Source: Myxococcota bacterium
GTDB lineage: Bacteria > Myxococcota_C > UBA6777
Length of the DNA: 55,665 nucleotides
Direction: 5' to 3'
NCBI GenBank assembly: GCA_023150835.1
Contig: JAKLKB010000031.1
Coordinates: forward strand, 1-55,665
The translations under genes were made by a program, and so were the position numbers. Below are positions 5,427 through 37,100 of the stretch, in pieces; position 1 is the first letter of the stretch, and every line of letters starts with the position of its first letter. The notes beneath the pieces were generated by a model. That model was not told the origin of the DNA and did not search any database. It saw nothing but the letters and a program-made list of their open reading frames with translations.

Positions 5427-5547
5427 CGCTCTCCGAGAGAAGTGTGCTCAAAGGGTCAGTGCGATCCGCGATGGGCGTGCTGTGGTTGGGCAGCCACAGG
5501 GGGCTGCCCCTACATCTTCCGTCTACTACGATGGGCGGATTTCGTAT
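5427..5547 (+). mobile_element. Palindromic MITE-like element, copy 2
   Basis: The copy begins with a degenerate left end (CTCTCCGAGAGAAGTGTG aligning with TATCCGAGTGATGTGTG of copy 1). It has the core hairpin GGGCAGCC-ACAGG-GGCTGCCC at about 5488-5510 and ends GATGGGCGGATTTCGTAT at 5547. It abuts the stop codon of the TerC-family gene and occupies most of the space before the S9 peptidase gene. Confidence 0.7.
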
Positions 5548-5650
5548 TAGCCCCCTCCGCCATCGTCTGACTCGAAACAAACACCGTTCCCTGAAACACT
5601 CGCTGTTCCAACAACTAACCCGCTTCTCCAACAACCCGAAGGAGCCGCCC

Positions 5651-8600
5651 ATGCCCATACGCCCCCCTCAACACACACCACCGCGATCTTTTCTGCCCTG
5701 CTGCACCGCTGCGACGGTGCTTTTGACATCCGCTGTCTTTGGCTTCGCAAGCCCCCGTGCCCACGCCGCCCCTCCCAAAGCCTCGGATGCTACGGCACAA
5801 CCGCACCCCCCCAAAGACTCGGATGCTACGGCACAATCAACGCATCCCAAAGCCTCGGATGCTATGAAATCCGCTCATGGCGTGATCGCAAAACGTAGGG
5901 GCAGCCCCCTGTGGCTGCCCAACCAGAGGGCGTCTACAGCGGATCGCACGACCCTTCGATCACACACCTCTCGAATATCGGATGCTACGGCACAACCAAC
6001 ACCCTCCAAATCTCCCAACGCAACGAAACGAACGACCACAACTGTGTCTGCGGCCCCTTCGATTGTTCGTAAAGTTCGCCCCACCACAAAGCCCGCAGCA
6101 TCGGCATCTCTCGCCAAAACCAAGATCAAGCCAAAAACTCCTGCTGCCAAGGCGGCCAAGACACCGAAGCCTGCACCACGTCCGTTGCGTGCGTGGCTAC
6201 TGCTTGGGCCTACGCCGCTACCGTTGCCGCTGTTTTCAAAAGACAAAGAAGGCTCTTACAAAGAAACCCAACTGCTCGCTGACGAACACCTTGATCAAGA
6301 GCGTTTGCGCCCACAGATCGGGCAAGAAGTGCCTTGGTTAGGTGGTCGATCTTTGCGTTGGCGTCCTTGGGGGGGTGGTTCGATCTCTCGCAAAAGCCCC
6401 CTTCCACAAGCCGCGTGGGCCGCAACATGGCTGCACACTACGCGCTACACCGAAGGCACGTTGATCTTGCGGTCCCATCAGCGTTTGCGTGTCTTGCTGG
6501 ATGGAAAAACGATCAGCACACAAGCCACTTGCACACCTGCCAAAGCCTCCAAACCCGCTGCTGTGACGGCCTCTTCAGCGGCCAAACCCACCCCGCCTCC
6601 TGCCTCGTTGCCCACCACCGCAACGGATCCGCGTGACCTGTTGATGTTGCGCATGGCCCAGATCCTCGAACGCCAGTCCCAACTGATCGAACGCCAAACG
6701 GCGATGCTTGGGGGGATGCTCCAACAAGCCCAAGCCCAAGCCAAAAGCCCCACCATCCCGACTCTACGGGTTTCTTTAAAGCTTACTCCCGGTCTGCATC
6801 GGATCGTGATCAAGACGCTTGCGACCCAAGATTGTCTACCGCATTGGGGGCTGGAAGCAACTCTTGAAGCTACCGATGCACCGAGCCTTCGAGCGATCAC
6901 CGCAGAGCGAATACCTACTTTTTACCACTCGATCGACTTCGTGCTGTATCGCAAGTACATCACAGCCCACAGCCTCTCTCCCGATGGAAAGCACATCGCC
7001 CTCTTGATGCAAAAGCTCCATCCCAACGGGCATCACGAATACTGGAGCGAGTTGCGCGATGCCCAACACGGTCATCTGCTACATTCGCTGCGTGCTGTCG
7101 GGGCGCTGCGCGATCTGCAATGGTCCCCCAATGGCCGCTATTACAGCTTTTCAACGATCATCAAAGGGTTAGGCGCGATCTGGCGGGTGGATCGGCAACA
7201 CGGAAGCGTGCGCTTGCTGCGTTCGGGCCTTCGGGGACTTTGGGGACACGCATGGGTCCATGACAGCCGAACGATCGTCTATAACGCCAGCCTACCGCTC
7301 ACTCCGACCGAGACCGAAAAAGCTGGACTCCTACGCTTGCGCGGGATGTTCGATCGCCTGCCTTGGCATCGCAACCGCAGCCATATCTATGCGATGTCTG
7401 CGGATGGAACGATGCACCTGCGCCTTACAGCGGGCTATTGGGGCAACGACACCCTCAAACTGCATCCAAGCGCCCCCAAGATCCTTTTTCGACGCTCGAT
7501 CCCCGACGACAAGACCCGCCCTTTTCGCAAAAGCGCTCTGTTTGAACTCGATCTGCGAACCTTGCAGATCACCCGTATCCTCGATAACTTGGGCAGCTTT
7601 TTCGGTGCGTCCTACGCCATGAACGGCGACGCCATCTTGATCAGCGGCGGTCCTTCGCTGTTTGGCATCCTCGGCCATGCACCCGATCTTCCACCCAGCA
7701 CCGTTCCCAACGACTACGACGGCGAGATCTACCTGTATCACCGCAAGACCAAGCAGATCACTTGCCCCACCCGCACCTTCGATCCAAGCGTCGAGCGGGC
7801 TTTTTGGCATCCGCTTACCCAAAAGATCTACCTCAACGCGCTTCACCGAACCCGCCGACTGTTGTATGAACTCGATCCGAAAAACGGACAGATCCGCCCA
7901 CTTGCCCATGCCAAGGGCCTCGATATCCTAAGCCAACTCAGAGCAGGCCGCCAAACCCACTCGCTCACCTACATCGGCAGCGGTCTCCAACACACCGAAA
8001 GCCTCTACCGCCTTGATTTGCGCACAGGCCGCTCCAAGCTGCTTTACGATCCCAACCAAGCCGCGTCCCAACACCTCCAACTCGGACCGATCGCCGACTG
8101 GGACGTCACCCTCAAACAAGGCGAACAACGCGACGGACACGTCTTTTACCCCCCCGGCTTTGACCCCCGAAAACGCTACCCCTTGATCGTGTATTACTAC
8201 GGCGGAACTTACCCCGTCACGCGCACCTTCGATGGGCGCTATCCCTTCCATCTTTGGGCTGCACAAGGATACGTCGTGTATGTCCTCCAACCCAGCGGTG
8301 CGATCGGCTTTGGACAACGCTTCTCCGCACGCCACGTCAACGAATGGGGAACCCTCGTTCCTTCCGAGATCATCCAGTCCACCCGACTGTTTCTTCGCGC
8401 CCATCCCTTCATCGATCCCAAGCGTGTCGGCTGTATCGGCGCAAGCTACGGCGGCTTTACCACGATGAGCGTCGTCACCAAAACCCGCCTCTTTGCTGCC
8501 GCCATCAGCCACGCAGGGATCAGCAACATCCCAAGCTACTGGGGCGGCGGATACTGGGGCTACCTCTATAGCGCCATCTCCGCAGCCCATCGCTACCCGT

Positions 8601-8908
8601 GGAGCCATCCAGACTATTTTACGCGCCAAAGCCCCCTATTCTCCGCCAACAAGATCCACACCCCCCTACTCCTCCTTCACGGTAGCCACGACACCAACGT
8701 CCCCGCCATCGAAAGCTATCAGATGTACGCCGCCTTGCGACTGCTCAAGCGGCCTGTCGAGATGGTCGTCGTCAAAGGCGAAGACCACTGGATCCTTCAA
8801 CCCAGCAAACGCATCCTCTGGAGCCACACCATCCTCGCATGGTTCGATCGCCACCTCAAAAAACAACCCCTCTGGTGGACCCGCCTGCACGGGAATCAAT
8901 CCTACTGA
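5651..8908 (+). CDS. Secreted S9-family prolyl oligopeptidase-like serine peptidase
   Basis: The start is ATG 5651, preceded by GAAGGAG about 7 bases upstream; the frame is open further upstream, but that part is the repeat element. The protein has 1085 residues. A signal peptide (residues 1 to about 32, ending RAHA|A) implies export. Next come 12-residue tandem repeats beginning SDATAQ, a 41-codon segment that is an in-frame palindromic element, and a Pro/Ala/Lys-rich linker. A beta-propeller-like region occupies roughly residues 400-820. The C-terminal alpha/beta-hydrolase domain has the full triad: Ser932 in GASYGG, Asp1014 in HGSHDTN and His1046 in GEDHW. S9 enzymes of this DPP-IV/acylaminoacyl-peptidase type cleave short peptides. 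The N-terminal 200 residues are longer than usual for the family. Confidence 0.9.
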   Translation: MPIRPPQHTPPRSFLPCCTAATVLLTSAVFGFASPRAHAAPPKASDATAQPHPPKDSDATAQSTHPKASDAMKSAHGVIAKRRGSPLWLPNQRASTADRTTLRSHTSRISDATAQPTPSKSPNATKRTTTTVSAAPSIVRKVRPTTKPAASASLAKTKIKPKTPAAKAAKTPKPAPRPLRAWLLLGPTPLPLPLFSKDKEGSYKETQLLADEHLDQERLRPQIGQEVPWLGGRSLRWRPWGGGSISRKSPLPQAAWAATWLHTTRYTEGTLILRSHQRLRVLLDGKTISTQATCTPAKASKPAAVTASSAAKPTPPPASLPTTATDPRDLLMLRMAQILERQSQLIERQTAMLGGMLQQAQAQAKSPTIPTLRVSLKLTPGLHRIVIKTLATQDCLPHWGLEATLEATDAPSLRAITAERIPTFYHSIDFVLYRKYITAHSLSPDGKHIALLMQKLHPNGHHEYWSELRDAQHGHLLHSLRAVGALRDLQWSPNGRYYSFSTIIKGLGAIWRVDRQHGSVRLLRSGLRGLWGHAWVHDSRTIVYNASLPLTPTETEKAGLLRLRGMFDRLPWHRNRSHIYAMSADGTMHLRLTAGYWGNDTLKLHPSAPKILFRRSIPDDKTRPFRKSALFELDLRTLQITRILDNLGSFFGASYAMNGDAILISGGPSLFGILGHAPDLPPSTVPNDYDGEIYLYHRKTKQITCPTRTFDPSVERAFWHPLTQKIYLNALHRTRRLLYELDPKNGQIRPLAHAKGLDILSQLRAGRQTHSLTYIGSGLQHTESLYRLDLRTGRSKLLYDPNQAASQHLQLGPIADWDVTLKQGEQRDGHVFYPPGFDPRKRYPLIVYYYGGTYPVTRTFDGRYPFHLWAAQGYVVYVLQPSGAIGFGQRFSARHVNEWGTLVPSEIIQSTRLFLRAHPFIDPKRVGCIGASYGGFTTMSVVTKTRLFAAAISHAGISNIPSYWGGGYWGYLYSAISAAHRYPWSHPDYFTRQSPLFSANKIHTPLLLLHGSHDTNVPAIESYQMYAALRLLKRPVEMVVVKGEDHWILQPSKRILWSHTILAWFDRHLKKQPLWWTRLHGNQSY
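5783..6013 (+). repeat. 36-bp in-frame tandem repeats interrupted by an element
   Basis: Units starting TCGGATGCTACGGCAC lie at 5783, 5819 and 5855; the third is interrupted after TCGGATGCTA and resumes at 5978. Each complete unit is 36 bp and encodes 12 residues (SDATAQ plus a variable half). The displacement of the interrupted unit is 123 bp, exactly 41 codons. Confidence 0.8.
5863..5980 (-). mobile_element. Palindromic MITE-like element, copy 3 (inside a CDS, in frame)
   Basis: The copy runs from TATGAAATCCGC to TCTCGAATATCG, with the core GGGGCAGCCCCCTGTGGC and GATCACACACCTC. It is in the opposite orientation to copies 1 and 2. It lies inside the S9 peptidase gene and is translated as roughly residues 71-111 without a stop. 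The 10-bp sequence TCGGATGCTA occurs at both junctions (5855-5864 and 5978-5987), which fits a target-site duplication, although the host is itself a tandem repeat. Confidence 0.8.
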
Positions 8909-19946: not shown

Positions 19947-20981
19947 ATGGAAACGATCATGCACGATATCCACTCTAGCCCGCTCCACACAAACCGATCC
20001 CCGCGAATGTTGCTGTTGCTCCTCGCCTTCTCTTCGGCCTTTTCCCTCACAGGCTGCCAGATCATCCAAACACAGACCTCTCCAAACCACCTGCCTTGGT
20101 TGTCTTGGCTATTTTGGGCCTTGCTTGCCTGCTCGGCGCTCACATTCGTTCGAGGACTCCAACAAGAACACGATAGCCTCAGCCTCAGCGGCCTCCTTTT
20201 GCTCGGTTTTACCATGCTTTGGTTTGCGTGGCGCATCCTCCCCTTCTCTCTTTCCAAACAACATCTCCTGTTGATCTTGCTCCAAGCCGCCGTATTACTC
20301 GGCTTGTTCGCCTTGATCCTCTTGTTCTTGCTGCGCGTCCTCGAAGACGGCTCCCGCTCTGCCGCCTCCCTCGCTTTCTTGCTGCTGTTTTTCCTCACCC
20401 TACCCTACACCCGCGCTACCACCCCTCCGCCTCCGTCGCTGCGCCTCCCCCAAAGCCTCCAGCCCCTCTGCTTCGCTCAAAACCCCGTCCCTTCGGTGCT
20501 TTCCTACAACGCCGACACTTGCGTCCGACTCGCACGCCTCCAACTTCGCCTCCAACACCACCTCCATCATACCCTCTACCCGCTGCGCAAAGACTACACC
20601 CAACAACTCCGTGATAGCCTCCCTCCCTTCAAAGAAAAATTCACCCAACTACCCCCCGCACAACAAACCCCCCAAGGCATCGAAAATAGCCTCCTGATCT
20701 ACGAATGGAAACGCCTTCGCCAGATCGCCATCCTTCAACACCAACTCGAATCCACCCAACAACGCGCCGAACAAGCCCTCGCCCAAAGCCGCTTTTATCT
20801 CTGGGAGCTTGCCCAGATGATACGCCTCAACCAAGAAAGTCTCGATGCGCAAAAGCAACACTACCTCGAAGCCGAACGTCGCCTCGATCAACTTCTTCGC
20901 GAACAACCCGTCCGATGGCAAGATCCCACCCTCACCCGCACCATCCAACAACAGCTTCTCCAACAACTCAAAAAAGAATAA
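19947..20981 (+). CDS. Hypothetical multi-pass membrane protein with C-terminal coiled coil
   Basis: The protein has about 344 residues. The start is uncertain among ATG 19947, 19959 and 20007. The first hydrophobic segment (LLLLLAFSSAFSLTGC) ends in a lipobox-like LTGC, so the protein may be a lipoprotein with further membrane helices, or the segment may simply be a helix. Three more hydrophobic segments follow (LSWLFWALLACSALTF, LSGLLLLGFTMLWFAW and a longer Leu/Ile/Ala-rich one). The final 170 residues are Gln/Leu/Arg-rich, predicted helical and probably coiled coil. I do not recognise the family. It is divergent from the Sel1-type gene. Confidence 0.65.
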   Translation: METIMHDIHSSPLHTNRSPRMLLLLLAFSSAFSLTGCQIIQTQTSPNHLPWLSWLFWALLACSALTFVRGLQQEHDSLSLSGLLLLGFTMLWFAWRILPFSLSKQHLLLILLQAAVLLGLFALILLFLLRVLEDGSRSAASLAFLLLFFLTLPYTRATTPPPPSLRLPQSLQPLCFAQNPVPSVLSYNADTCVRLARLQLRLQHHLHHTLYPLRKDYTQQLRDSLPPFKEKFTQLPPAQQTPQGIENSLLIYEWKRLRQIAILQHQLESTQQRAEQALAQSRFYLWELAQMIRLNQESLDAQKQHYLEAERRLDQLLREQPVRWQDPTLTRTIQQQLLQQLKKE

Positions 20982-21030
20982 GAGAAAAGTGACTTATCGG
21001 GGTACATTTGTGGGGGTTCCACCTCATACC

Positions 21031-21047
21031 CCGCGCCCTCAGCGCGG
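21031..21047. repeat. Small GC-rich hairpin
   Basis: CCGCGC-CCTCA-GCGCGG is a perfect 6-bp stem about 50 bp after the membrane-protein stop codon. It lacks a T-tract. The GCGCGGCTC...TTGACTCC sequence beside it recurs in variant form near 9211 and, inverted, near 9418. Confidence 0.4.
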
Positions 21048-21064
21048 CTCCCTTGACTCCATAC

Positions 21065-21123
21065 CGTAGCGTCTACAACAAATCGTGCCGATGTTTCGCA
21101 CACATATCTCTCGGATATCGTAT
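21065..21123 (-). mobile_element. Palindromic MITE-like element, copy 5 (right end only)
   Basis: Only the terminal part is recognisable: GTAGCGTCTAC, CACACATATCTCTCGG and ATATCGTAT, matching the right ends at 11785 and 27151. The core hairpin and left arm are missing, being replaced by unrelated repeat sequence. It lies directly upstream of the Cys-rich lipoprotein gene. Confidence 0.55.
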
Positions 21124-21146
21124 CCGCCGAAAGAAAGAGATCTTCG

Positions 21147-22349
21147 ATGCCTAAGTTGCTCTTGGTCTTGATCCTGTGTGTCCTTTTCTTTGCCGTCGCT
21201 TGCCCCCCGCCATCGGCCTCTTGCAAACAAGACAGCGATTGCCCTCCCACGCAACGCTGCCTCCAACAACGCTGCGCCCTCACCGATACCTCCGAGTCCT
21301 CCGCAGAGACCCACCACGACACTTCCGACGCCTCCGATGCCTCCGAAGAGATCAGCTCCGATACATCCGATGCCTCCGATGCAATCCCCCCCGAGAATCC
21401 CCAAGAATGGCCCATCGAATCTCCAGAAGACCACGAGAACACACCCGACAGAGAAATCACCACCGAGATCCGCCCCGAATCCGTGATCGAGCCACCCACC
21501 GAGATCCGCCCCGAATCCGTGATCGAGCCACCCACCGAGATCCGCCCTGAACCCACTCCCGAAACAGCACCACTCGGAAGCCTTGGGACACCATGCCAAA
21601 ACAACACCACCTGCACACAAGGCCAATGTTTAGACATCTTCGGACTCGGGCAAAAACTGTGTAGCCTTCCTTGTAAGAAAAATACGGAATGCCCCACCCA
21701 AAGCATCTGTCAACGCCCCAAAGCGTGGGAAGGCTTTTGTATGCCTGCCTGCCAACGCTCCCAAGACTGCGCGCATTACCCACACACGCCTCTTTGCGCC
21801 TCCGAAGGGCACTGCTGGGCACCCAAACGCGTCGGATTCTCCTGCTTGCGCAAGGATGAATGCGCAACAGGTCTCGATTGTGTCGATCCCGGGGGGGTCG
21901 GTGAAAAAATATGCACAAAAGCCTGTACTGAAGACCCAAGCGATCCACGCGCATCTTGCGGAGGAAACTCTTACTGCGAAGCGCACCTCGGCCCGGGCTC
22001 ACCCGGCTTTTGTGTCCCACTCTGTCAAAAGCCCGAAGATTGCCGCTCCTTTTCCGCTGTGCCCCATTGCAACTTTGAAGGGCATTGTTGGCGCGCTTAC
22101 CTAAATGACTTTCGCCTTTGCACCGATTCGACGCTGTGTTTGAGTGGCTTGTGCAAACAACCCAAAGATCTTCACACAGCGATCTGCACCTACGAATGCA
22201 GTCAAGACAGCGATTGCTCTTTGCGTACACGCTGTTCTGGCGCATCCCCCCAAAGCACCGGCCTTTGCCTCCCTTCTTGCACAACCCACGCAGATTGCGC
22301 CCTCTACCTCGATCTCCAAACCTGCGAAACCAACGGATTTTGTCGATAA
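21147..22349 (+). CDS. Cys-rich lipoprotein with Ser/Asp/Glu spacer
   Basis: The protein has 400 residues. The lipoprotein signal ends FFAVAC. A short Cys cluster (SCKQDSDCPPTQRCLQQRC) is followed by a spacer of about 100 residues rich in Ser/Asp/Thr/Glu. The spacer includes a 12-residue tandem repeat of the type TEIRPESVIEPP (36-bp DNA units at 21462 and 21498, with part of a third at 21534). Residues from about 145 onward form five to six disulfide-rich modules of about 45 residues with the pattern C..D.DC......C....G.C. The layout is the same as that of the lipoprotein at 12509-13141. Outer-envelope location is likely; function unknown. It is convergent with the MYXO-CTERM gene, the stop codons being 12 bp apart. 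Confidence 0.82.
   Translation: MPKLLLVLILCVLFFAVACPPPSASCKQDSDCPPTQRCLQQRCALTDTSESSAETHHDTSDASDASEEISSDTSDASDAIPPENPQEWPIESPEDHENTPDREITTEIRPESVIEPPTEIRPESVIEPPTEIRPEPTPETAPLGSLGTPCQNNTTCTQGQCLDIFGLGQKLCSLPCKKNTECPTQSICQRPKAWEGFCMPACQRSQDCAHYPHTPLCASEGHCWAPKRVGFSCLRKDECATGLDCVDPGGVGEKICTKACTEDPSDPRASCGGNSYCEAHLGPGSPGFCVPLCQKPEDCRSFSAVPHCNFEGHCWRAYLNDFRLCTDSTLCLSGLCKQPKDLHTAICTYECSQDSDCSLRTRCSGASPQSTGLCLPSCTTHADCALYLDLQTCETNGFCR
21462..21551 (+). repeat. 36-bp in-frame tandem repeat
   Basis: Two essentially identical 36-bp units (21462-21497 and 21498-21533) and the first half of a third start with ACCGAGATCCGCCC. They encode TEIRPESVIEPP in the lipoprotein stalk. Confidence 0.85.
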
Positions 22350-34151: not shown

Positions 34152-37100
34152 TCAGGAGACGGGATGGCGAGGAAGGATCGCGTCTTGGTGTTCAAGGACG
34201 ATGGTGGGGGCGGGTTCACGGAGCTTTCCGTCAGAGGTGAGTTCATAATGAAGGGCTCTGAGTTGTGCGCCGGGGGCGTGGACAGAGACACGAACGCGAT
34301 CTTTTTCGACCCAGTACTCGGCATAACGCTCGGAGGTTGCGGCTCCCGGAGTGACGATCTCAAAGCCGCGAAGATAAAAGCCAAGCCATTCTTCGATCTT
34401 GGAGCGAACCAAACGCACGCCTGATTTTTGTAAGAAAAAGACGAGATGTTGATCGCAAGCGCTCTGTTGATCGAGCGTAAGGCGAAGAGCGCCTTGGGAT
34501 GGGGTGGAGAGAGAGCGCAAAGACGCCAGCAGCCAGCCGTTTTCCAGTTCATAGCGCAAGCGCAAGCGATAGAGGGTGGTTTGCTCTTGGCGGATCTCCA
34601 AAAAGGCGTCAAGGTGGGTGCGATCCGTGTCGATCTCTTCGCAAACAAAGCGCAGCCCGCTGTGTTCGAAGGCTGGATCGCGATGCAATGCGGCGATCAG
34701 ATCGCGGTCCACAAAGCGCCGAACATCCTCGGCGACGTGGTGCAGATCGTGGTGGACGCGATGGACTTTGTCTTCGTCGTAGTACAAAAAGCTTTTCTTG
34801 TAGGCTTTGAACAGTTTTTCATAGGCACGCGGCAAAGTGCCCGAGTGAAAGCCTCGCCGCAACAGCGCGTCGACCGTTTCGCCGTGCGATCCCACCCGAA
34901 CAGCGGCAGGAGACGCAGGCTGATTGGCGCGAAACAGCTTCCAGTTTTCTTTGAGTTCCCACGCCAAGAATCCGCAAAGCCCGGGCAGCCCGAATTGAAA
35001 AAACAAGCCGACGATCCAGATCACAGAGCGAGCAAAACCCGCACTTTCCATCACGGTGATGATCACGATGGTGGCAGGGATCAGGAGTTTGTGAGAGATC
35101 GTGACGATCGGAAAGTGTTTCACGGGGTTGAGTTGCGGTTCTGCGACGAGATTCACGCTGAGTCGGATCAGGTAGGTCACACCAAACCACAGACTTTGGA
35201 GGATGCTTTTGATCCAGATGACTGCGCGGCCTTCGCCTTCATGGAAACGCAACATATCGTCCACCCGATAGATCGCGTAATCAAGCGCGATCAAGAAACG
35301 GCGAAAGACCTCCAAAGTCCAACGGATCAAACCGACCACGAGGTGATCACGGATCTGCGACCATAAAGCGAGCAGACGATACGCCAGCCAGTCCCAAACC
35401 GCCCGTCCGATCGTTGTATTCAACAAGAAGTACAAAAATCCCGCCCACACCAATACGCTCAAAAACTGCCATCCAAAGGGCACCTGATAATGCAGGATCT
35501 GCGGATACAGATTGCGCATCGTCACACGCCACGCGGTACTTCCGACGAATGTAAAGGCCAGCGCCACAAATACAGGCAGCACGATGTGGCGATACACAAA
35601 AAAAGCCCGAGGATGCGTCAAGACCAGTTGTAGCCAAGGGTGACGGTACAGCCAACGCGGTCCCTCGATAAACAAAAAGCGCAAGGCCATACCGAAGCTC
35701 GACAAGATCCGCCGAAACAGATCCCAACCTGTTTCGGTGTGCATCACGCCATACATCAAAAGACCGAGGACAAGCACACTTTGAAAGCCGACATAGTCCC
35801 ACAGATGAACCTTCGGTAGCTTCAGGCTGTAAAGCGTCGCATCCATCACCCAAACAGGTACGCTTTCCCGAACGACGAGGATATCGCTATAAGAAAAATA
35901 AAACAGGATGTGGTTGCGCAAAAAGGCGTTGAAGTACTCGACCACGATCCCAAACGTCATCAAAAGCGCAACGGCCCCACCAAAGGGCAACAGCAGATTC
36001 AGACAGAACCAACGCCCCCAGATCGTGCCAAAAGCCAGCGCCGAAAACCGTTGGTTCAGGCGAAGGTAGATCTCACCCGAGCGATAGATATCGTGAAAAC
36101 GCGGCTGTAAGGCTTCGTTGAGCTTGATCAAGATATCACCATGAAGAAAGTCACGCCACGTCGAGGTGGGAAGGCGAAGATCGTTGCGGCTGATCACATC
36201 GCGCATATCAGAGAAACTAAACTGGCCCCTGCGCACCACAAGATCCATCAAGTCGTCGCGGATACGCGCTTGGGCGACTTCTTCACGCAACGAAGCTGGG
36301 ACCAATCCGACTTTGTTCATCGCCTCGATCAATCGAGGCCCAAAGGTTTCGCGGACGCTTTGTTCGATGTAGTGGTTGGCTTGATGGATCGGGATCAACA
36401 AGCGTTCAAGGCGTTGTTCGGGCAGAGGGAGCCCTTCGAGGCGACGCAACGTCACTTGGAGATAGTGCATCGCACGGATCATCCCGTAATGATCGAGCGG
36501 GATCTGGAGGGGGACTTGCCCTTTGTGGCGGATCCATCGGGCAAGCCGCGTGACAAAAAACAAACGCTCTCGATCAAGATAACTGCGTTGCATGGATTTT
36601 AAACTGGCCGCTGCGAGCCGTCCAAGTCGCGACGACAACGGCACAGAAAGCAAAAGCGCGATCAGTTCGGACAAACTGCGCAAAGCAGGTCCTTGGGTTG
36701 GATAATGTTCGCAAAAGCGCGTCAATAGGGTATTTTGGTAGCTTTGCTGTTGAACGATCAGCTCGTTTAAAAACCCACGACTGGCCTCATCTGCGACCAT
36801 CCCGCGAAAAAAACGGATGGCTTCGCCGCATTGAAGGGCAGCTTCGGCCTCGTTTCCGCGCCATTCTTCTGCAATGGCCCATCGATAGGAATGAACGAAC
36901 TCAAACACTTGTGTGCGCAAAGCTTGTCGCGCCGCAAAGCGCAGCAGAAACATCTGGAGCTTCGATGGACTCGGCGGGTTCGCGGTTTCGGCAGCATCTT
37001 GGGCCTCAGCATGACGATGCGTACGCGTCAAAAACGGCATCACAGAGATCCAGCGCCCCCAAACACGCACTTGAAACCACCACCACAACGACGAGATAAC

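Follow-up and report, generated by a model that had tools for sequence, protein, structure and literature searches.

The window analysed here is a whole contig of 55,665 nucleotides (C180; JAKLKB010000031.1) from a Myxococcota bacterium (GCA_023150835.1), whose genome, G000, is a draft of 7.56 Mb in 239 contigs. It carries a gene for an S9 (prolyl oligopeptidase family) peptidase, and a profile search placed the prolyl oligopeptidase catalytic domain at aa 866-1071 of the product (PF00326, 142.7 bits versus a cut-off of 22.6, E 1.5e-41). The ATG is preceded, at a distance of 6 bases, by AAGGAG, a good match to a ribosome-binding site, and the first 39 residues form a probable Sec signal peptide, as judged by eye. 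Between signal peptide and enzyme runs a long linker rich in Pro, Ala, Lys, and Thr. As the earlier note on this DNA had described, the linker contains 36-bp tandem repeats, of which two units are complete and the third is interrupted by an inserted element (Table 1).

The element, which begins after codon 70, adds together with a 3-bp duplication 123 bp to the gene, that is, codons 71-111. These 41 codons hold no stop, as had been claimed, and the reading frame from the ATG at 5651 is open across the whole insert. A possibility raised beforehand was that translation starts downstream of the element, which would have spoken against an in-frame capture. No convincing candidate for such a start was found: the earliest plausible ATG 3′ of the element is codon 332, and it is the upstream ATG that has a good ribosome-binding site and a signal-like sequence. 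The added residues include KSAHGVIAKRRGSPLWLPNQRASTADRTTLRSHTSRIS and its neighbors, a basic stretch that is probably unstructured. The RNA fold predicted for the element had an energy of −40.7 kcal/mol (z −1.7). A second, older copy of the element lies in the intergenic region and starts just past the stop codon of the upstream gene.

Table 1. Features of the peptidase locus and of two other genes with in-frame element sequence (positions refer to the window unless a contig is given)
Feature	Position	Strand	Basis or remark
S9 (prolyl oligopeptidase family) peptidase gene	5651..8908	+	ORF, ATG start, 1085 aa, predicted exported
Probable Sec signal peptide MPIRPP...AHA, aa 1-39	5651..5767	+	called by eye
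Two 36-bp tandem linker units (TCGGATGCTACGGCACAA...)	5783..5854	+	units at 5783 and 5819
Inserted element, 120 bp, ends TATGAAATCC / GAATATCGGA	5863..5982	+	family alignment and empty site in L051
Left 3-bp target duplication TGC	5860..5862	+	
Right 3-bp target duplication TGC	5983..5985	+	
Left copy of 10-bp repeat TCGGATGCTA	5855..5864	+	host TCGGA, TGC, then element TA
Right copy of 10-bp repeat TCGGATGCTA	5978..5987	+	element TCGGA, TGC, then host TA
Core hairpin of element (GTAGGGGCAGCC-CCCTGT-GGCTGCCC)	5895..5920	+	
Second, older element copy between upstream gene and peptidase start	5427..5546 (approximate ends)	-	present in both species
TonB-dependent receptor gene (L178/L057)	G000:C5, about 20400-22034		Plug domain PF07715
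HmuY-type lipoprotein gene (PF14064, L215)	G000:C111, about 36201-36947	-	sister copy L214/L202 on G001:C47

We searched for the orthologue of the peptidase gene in 60 genomes and found it in G001, the only other genome of the genus (sister species, Myxococcota MAG/isolate KLAP109, contig record CAUJFU010000209.1). The empty site that the earlier note had proposed to look for is there: in the alignment, the insert is precisely absent from the KLAP109 gene, the flanks are otherwise collinear, and a single TCGGATGCTA, hence one copy of the target, runs on into CGGCACAACC. The KLAP109 linker also has one 36-bp (12-residue) unit fewer than that of G000. Thus, the two genes differ in length by 159 bp (123 + 36), both frames are intact, and apart from the insert and a single 12-residue unit of the linker the two proteins can be aligned. 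The insertion is real, since the sister orthologue has an empty site, and this orthologue, taken with the family evidence given below, puts it beyond chance. We considered that the assembly might be chimeric here, misjoined at a repeat present in many copies, given a draft in 239 contigs and hundreds of family copies. However, both flanks are collinear with a single locus of the sister and the frame continues across the element, and orthologous halves are not what a chimera would bring together; an artefact is therefore extremely improbable.

Over 1032 codons compared between the two species, dN/dS was 0.08, and by this measure the peptidase gene is under purifying selection. The value was 0.32 in the 81-codon linker 3′ of the insert, and the part preceding the insert showed just 4 changes in 56 codons, too small a number for judgement. 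Differences between the species amounted to 0/150 at 5550-5699, 3/114 at 5700-5849, and 0/27 at 5850-5999, and to roughly 4-11% in most other intervals around the peptidase. This unusually similar tract, 5550-5999, would fit either recent allelic exchange or constraint.

The inserted sequence belongs to a large family with the traits of a MITE. The core hairpin gave 554 matches in G000 with at most 3 mismatches, against 0 for a reversed control, and together with the empty orthologue this substantiated the proposal that a complete MITE copy sits in frame in the peptidase gene. Full-length copies have terminal inverted repeats, with consensus ends TACGAAATCCG to CGGATATCGTA, and they are short, with a length distribution that has peaks at 113 and 121 bp (n=121). 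Presence is polymorphic between relatives at the window site and in the filled/empty pairs L192/L127, C176/L132, and C17/L122. A left-arm pattern matched 367 times in G000 and 87 times in G001, with 0 matches in the 3 other genomes of the taxonomic family. The element family thus looks genus-restricted, at the sensitivity of this pattern search.

Some features of the family are worth recording in their own right. A 9-bp block in the right half, AGCGGATCG, sets the two size classes (about 113 and 121 bp) apart. The core hairpin also occurs in short-period tandem arrays (G000:C12, about 21400-21640; G000:C62:16418-16521; G000:C69:19727-19854), as if sub-units were also multiplying by tandem duplication. 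In addition, the core, for example at 5895-5920 of the window, opens with GTAG ahead of a GC-rich hairpin, an arrangement that we take to resemble REP units, and the MITE may here enclose an older REP-like unit. REP/REPIN sequences are moved by RAYT (Y1-HUH) transposases and are not known to duplicate their target, and in them GTAG plus hairpin is the whole unit. We rejected this class for the present family: its core does start with GTAG, but the unit extends over all 113-121 bp and comes with a 3-bp duplication.

What the element duplicates on insertion was decided on the family. The earlier note had drawn the element at 5855-5987 with a 10-bp target duplication. The 10-bp direct repeat is indeed present and perfect, its two copies are spaced by 123 bp, and it is single in the sister, all of which would suit an element of 113 bp (5865-5977) with TCGGATGCTA on either side. 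We examined 131 oriented distinct copies and kept the 121 with both ends within 3 mismatches (10 were dropped). Identical 3-bp flanks were found in 49/121, versus a mean of 17.7 and a maximum of 28 over 200 shuffles, while 10-bp flank identity was found in 0/121. The flanks follow a TNA consensus (first base T in 100/121 and last base A in 102/121 left flanks), so that the family has the fixed-length target duplication of a MITE, 3 bp, TNA. Moreover, the 10-bp reading needs a copy without the TA and TCGNA ends that are present in nearly all full-length copies. On these grounds the 10-bp duplication is improbable. The boundaries were redrawn accordingly to the 120 bp of Table 1, with a duplication of 3 bp, TGC, and the site reads TCGGA-TGC-[TATGAAATCC...GAATATCGGA]-TGC-TACGG (the element is also written TATGAAATCC...ATATCGGA, with ATATCGGA given as its right end).

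Further support came from a scan for empty sites. Querying 339 copies yielded 23 flank-adjacent pairs, of which 4, including the window, were usable; the discarded ones were compound, rearranged, within arrays, or matched via the repeat itself. L192 has TGA on both sides and the empty L127 a single TGA; the copy on G000:C176, compared with the empty L132, has TCA / CCA flanks; and the copy on G000:C17, a compound insertion compared with the empty L122, has TAA. These three further empty/filled comparisons agree with a 3-bp duplication.

The 10-bp repeat at the peptidase can then be read as the 3-bp duplication plus 5 host bases that equal the right end of the element and 2 that equal its left end. 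Both ends of this copy are rare variants: the right end TCGGA occurs in 4/133 copies (TCGTA in 100), and those 4 carry no such 10-bp target, which also argues against the 10-bp reading; of the left ends tallied, 2 were TATGA and 116 TACGA. The target triplet TGC is likewise off-consensus with respect to the TNA of the family. The 7 extra matching flank bases may be due to chance, or to later conversion with the neighboring linker repeats.

The capture had also been described as recent, a view that the copy itself did not bear out. Its identity to the nearest sampled full-length copy is 87.6% over the element, and because this is close to the family median of 88.4%, the peptidase copy is not obviously young as far as such a comparison can date it. 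This bears on a reversed order of events, with the element already in the common ancestor and then precisely deleted in the sister through recombination of either the 10-bp repeats or the tandem linker units. Direct repeats of 10 bp in a tandem-repeat region favor deletion, and a copy that does not look new would be expected. Yet a simple insertion takes one event, and the low divergence around the site fits a young difference while being silent on direction. Two genomes do not fix the direction; loss in the sister is rather unlikely in our estimation, and insertion in the G000 lineage, presumably after the split of the two species, is the simplest account.

As to the enzyme that moved the element, the 3-bp TNA duplication points to a transposase of the IS5 family, IS1031-like. 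Elements of the IS1031 group share the TNA preference and the 3-bp repeat, according to the relevant section of PMC12016507, although the MITE ends, TACGAAATCCG, are unlike the one IS1031-type terminal repeat that appears in that section. By this analogy, an IS5/IS1031-type DDE transposase most likely moved the element. In G000, transposase profiles matched 5 times for PF01609, once for PF13586, and 0 times for PF13340 and PF13359. None of the five PF01609 loci, when checked for ends, was a bounded element, and the PF13586 match (L282) overlaps the L177 region, which was scanned for ends. An end-pair scan of the retrieved DNA returned two pairs; one of them reused MITE ends, and the other enclosed unrelated genes. 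Hence, neither an autonomous partner with matching ends nor a full-length IS or IS1031-type transposase gene bearing the ends of the MITE was found by profile searches and end-pair scan in this incomplete draft.

We therefore favor, with a probability of roughly 0.85, that a MITE making a 3-bp duplication landed in the third of the 36-bp linker repeats, kept the frame, and is read through as 41 extra residues. The transposase responsible would duplicate 3 bp at TNA-like sites and would have moved this non-autonomous palindromic element into the region between signal peptide and enzyme. There, 120 bp plus the 3-bp duplication preserve the frame and this copy is stop-free in the strand and frame used, so that the ribosome would read through it and the peptidase would be translated and exported with its 41 additional residues. 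The site would tolerate the insert because the low-complexity linker already varies in length between the species.

The open frame, for its part, is a weak sign of coding selection. In a 2.0 Mb sample, the frame used in the peptidase was open in 74/173 full-length copies; these 173 copies had 344 open frames, that is, about two of six each, and the consensus element itself has two. Element length plus 3 was divisible by 3 in 27/121 copies. An in-frame, stop-free copy is not improbable, given insertion into a gene that survived. Rather, selection lies in the survival of insertions: 262 of the 275 copies (≥60 model positions) in 2.01 Mb fall outside crudely called genes covering 75% of the sequence; the crude caller set the start of the peptidase too far downstream, and the peptidase copy was therefore not counted as inside.

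Domestication, the interpretation given in the earlier note, would mean that the 41 residues are useful to the enzyme and kept by selection. The intact frame and the constraint on the gene would agree with it, as would an HmuY-type lipoprotein (see below) whose signal peptide has retained an element-derived segment in both species. In the peptidase, however, the insertion is in one genome only, so that selection on it is not measurable, and the insert lies within a variable-length linker of low complexity, has no conserved motif, and implies no catalytic role. We saw no sign of selection on the added peptide, and tolerance in a flexible linker accounts for all observations; domestication is accordingly very unlikely. 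The insert is probably a tolerated passenger, and it is tolerance rather than benefit that the locus suggests.

We scanned 2.0 Mb of G000 and the earlier loci for in-frame captures, using a codon score and inspection by eye, and kept three genes. Most other apparent in-frame ORFs start normally 3′ of the element or lack a coding signal by the same codon score and inspection. The two captures besides the peptidase are both at the N-termini of predicted exported proteins. One is a TonB-dependent receptor, with two in-frame element copies between a signal-like start and the plug; the element apparently inserted and was then tandemly duplicated, and the orthologue in the sister (G001:C228) is without element copies.

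The other is the HmuY-type lipoprotein. Here both species carry 95-96 bp of the element, and this piece supplies the sequence that leads into the lipobox (...ALFLGSHRGMPLRFAVALLWLAGC for G001, ...ALFLGSHTLLLLCFAVALLWLAGC for G000). The homologues of G003 and G004 lack the element and begin with an ordinary lipoprotein-like sequence. Between the two species, nonsynonymous changes number 10.5 and synonymous ones 0.5 in the 32 element-derived codons (19-50), compared with 11 and 40, respectively, in codons 51 to the end. This is a small sample in which adjacent changes are possibly one event, and we do not claim positive selection; with a putative start codon, the pattern in codons 19-50 could be relaxed constraint, tuning, or one block change.

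It is tempting to think that exported proteins of this genus have repeatedly drawn on the palindrome for their N-termini. One of its strands and frames encodes a basic-then-hydrophobic stretch (ALWLGSHRGLPLHF-like), and landings near export signals might survive and even join the signal peptide, as in the HmuY-type lipoprotein. We put this forward as a tentative and on balance doubtful idea.

In-frame capture of MITEs is already established in other bacteria, and the peptidase case adds one more. Rickettsia palindromic elements (RPE) lie in frame in protein genes and are read through as added peptide, as the portions of PMC10969869 and PMC2229807 on these elements describe. They are about 100-150 bp, palindromic, high-copy, and non-autonomous (same portions of PMC10969869 and PMC2229807), and the in-frame insertions in the peptidase, the TonB receptor, and the HmuY-type lipoprotein resemble theirs. 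The likeness is claimed for the mode of action alone, as the host group is unrelated and the sequence probably is too. The target duplication is listed as unknown for RPE in that portion of PMC2229807, whereas it is 3 bp, TNA, here. Nearly half of the R. conorii RPEs are in ORFs, by the account excerpted from PMC10969869, whereas in-frame captures are rare here, with 3 genes versus 275 copies in 2.0 Mb. Among the rickettsial cases, gmk was tested experimentally and is described in the excerpt of PMC2229807 as translated and enzymatically active.

A parallel for the N-terminal position is offered by the ORF fusions of ERIC (RU-1) and YPAL (RU-2) in enterobacteria, again MITEs in frame at the N-termini of exported proteins. 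The pertinent extract of PMC2759123 presents the predicted signal peptide of YPO1552 as partly RU-2, and this leader parallels that of the HmuY-type gene. Element and duplication are different, and here an empty orthologue was seen for the peptidase and the TonB receptor. Our full-text literature search on uncultured Myxococcota retrieved no MITE literature beyond unrelated bioreactor work, and a literature search for the sequence of the element gave two matches, both unrelated.

Collectively, the comparison of the two genomes indicates that the capture of a MITE by the peptidase gene is real, in frame, and polymorphic. It provides a clean case, with an empty orthologue and a defined 3-bp duplication, in uncultured Myxococcota. 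The HmuY-type lipoprotein is the more interesting lead, and real exaptation is better tested on it than on the peptidase. Given its several hundred copies and the availability of a sister genome, this family amounts to a natural experiment on when mobile DNA turns into protein.
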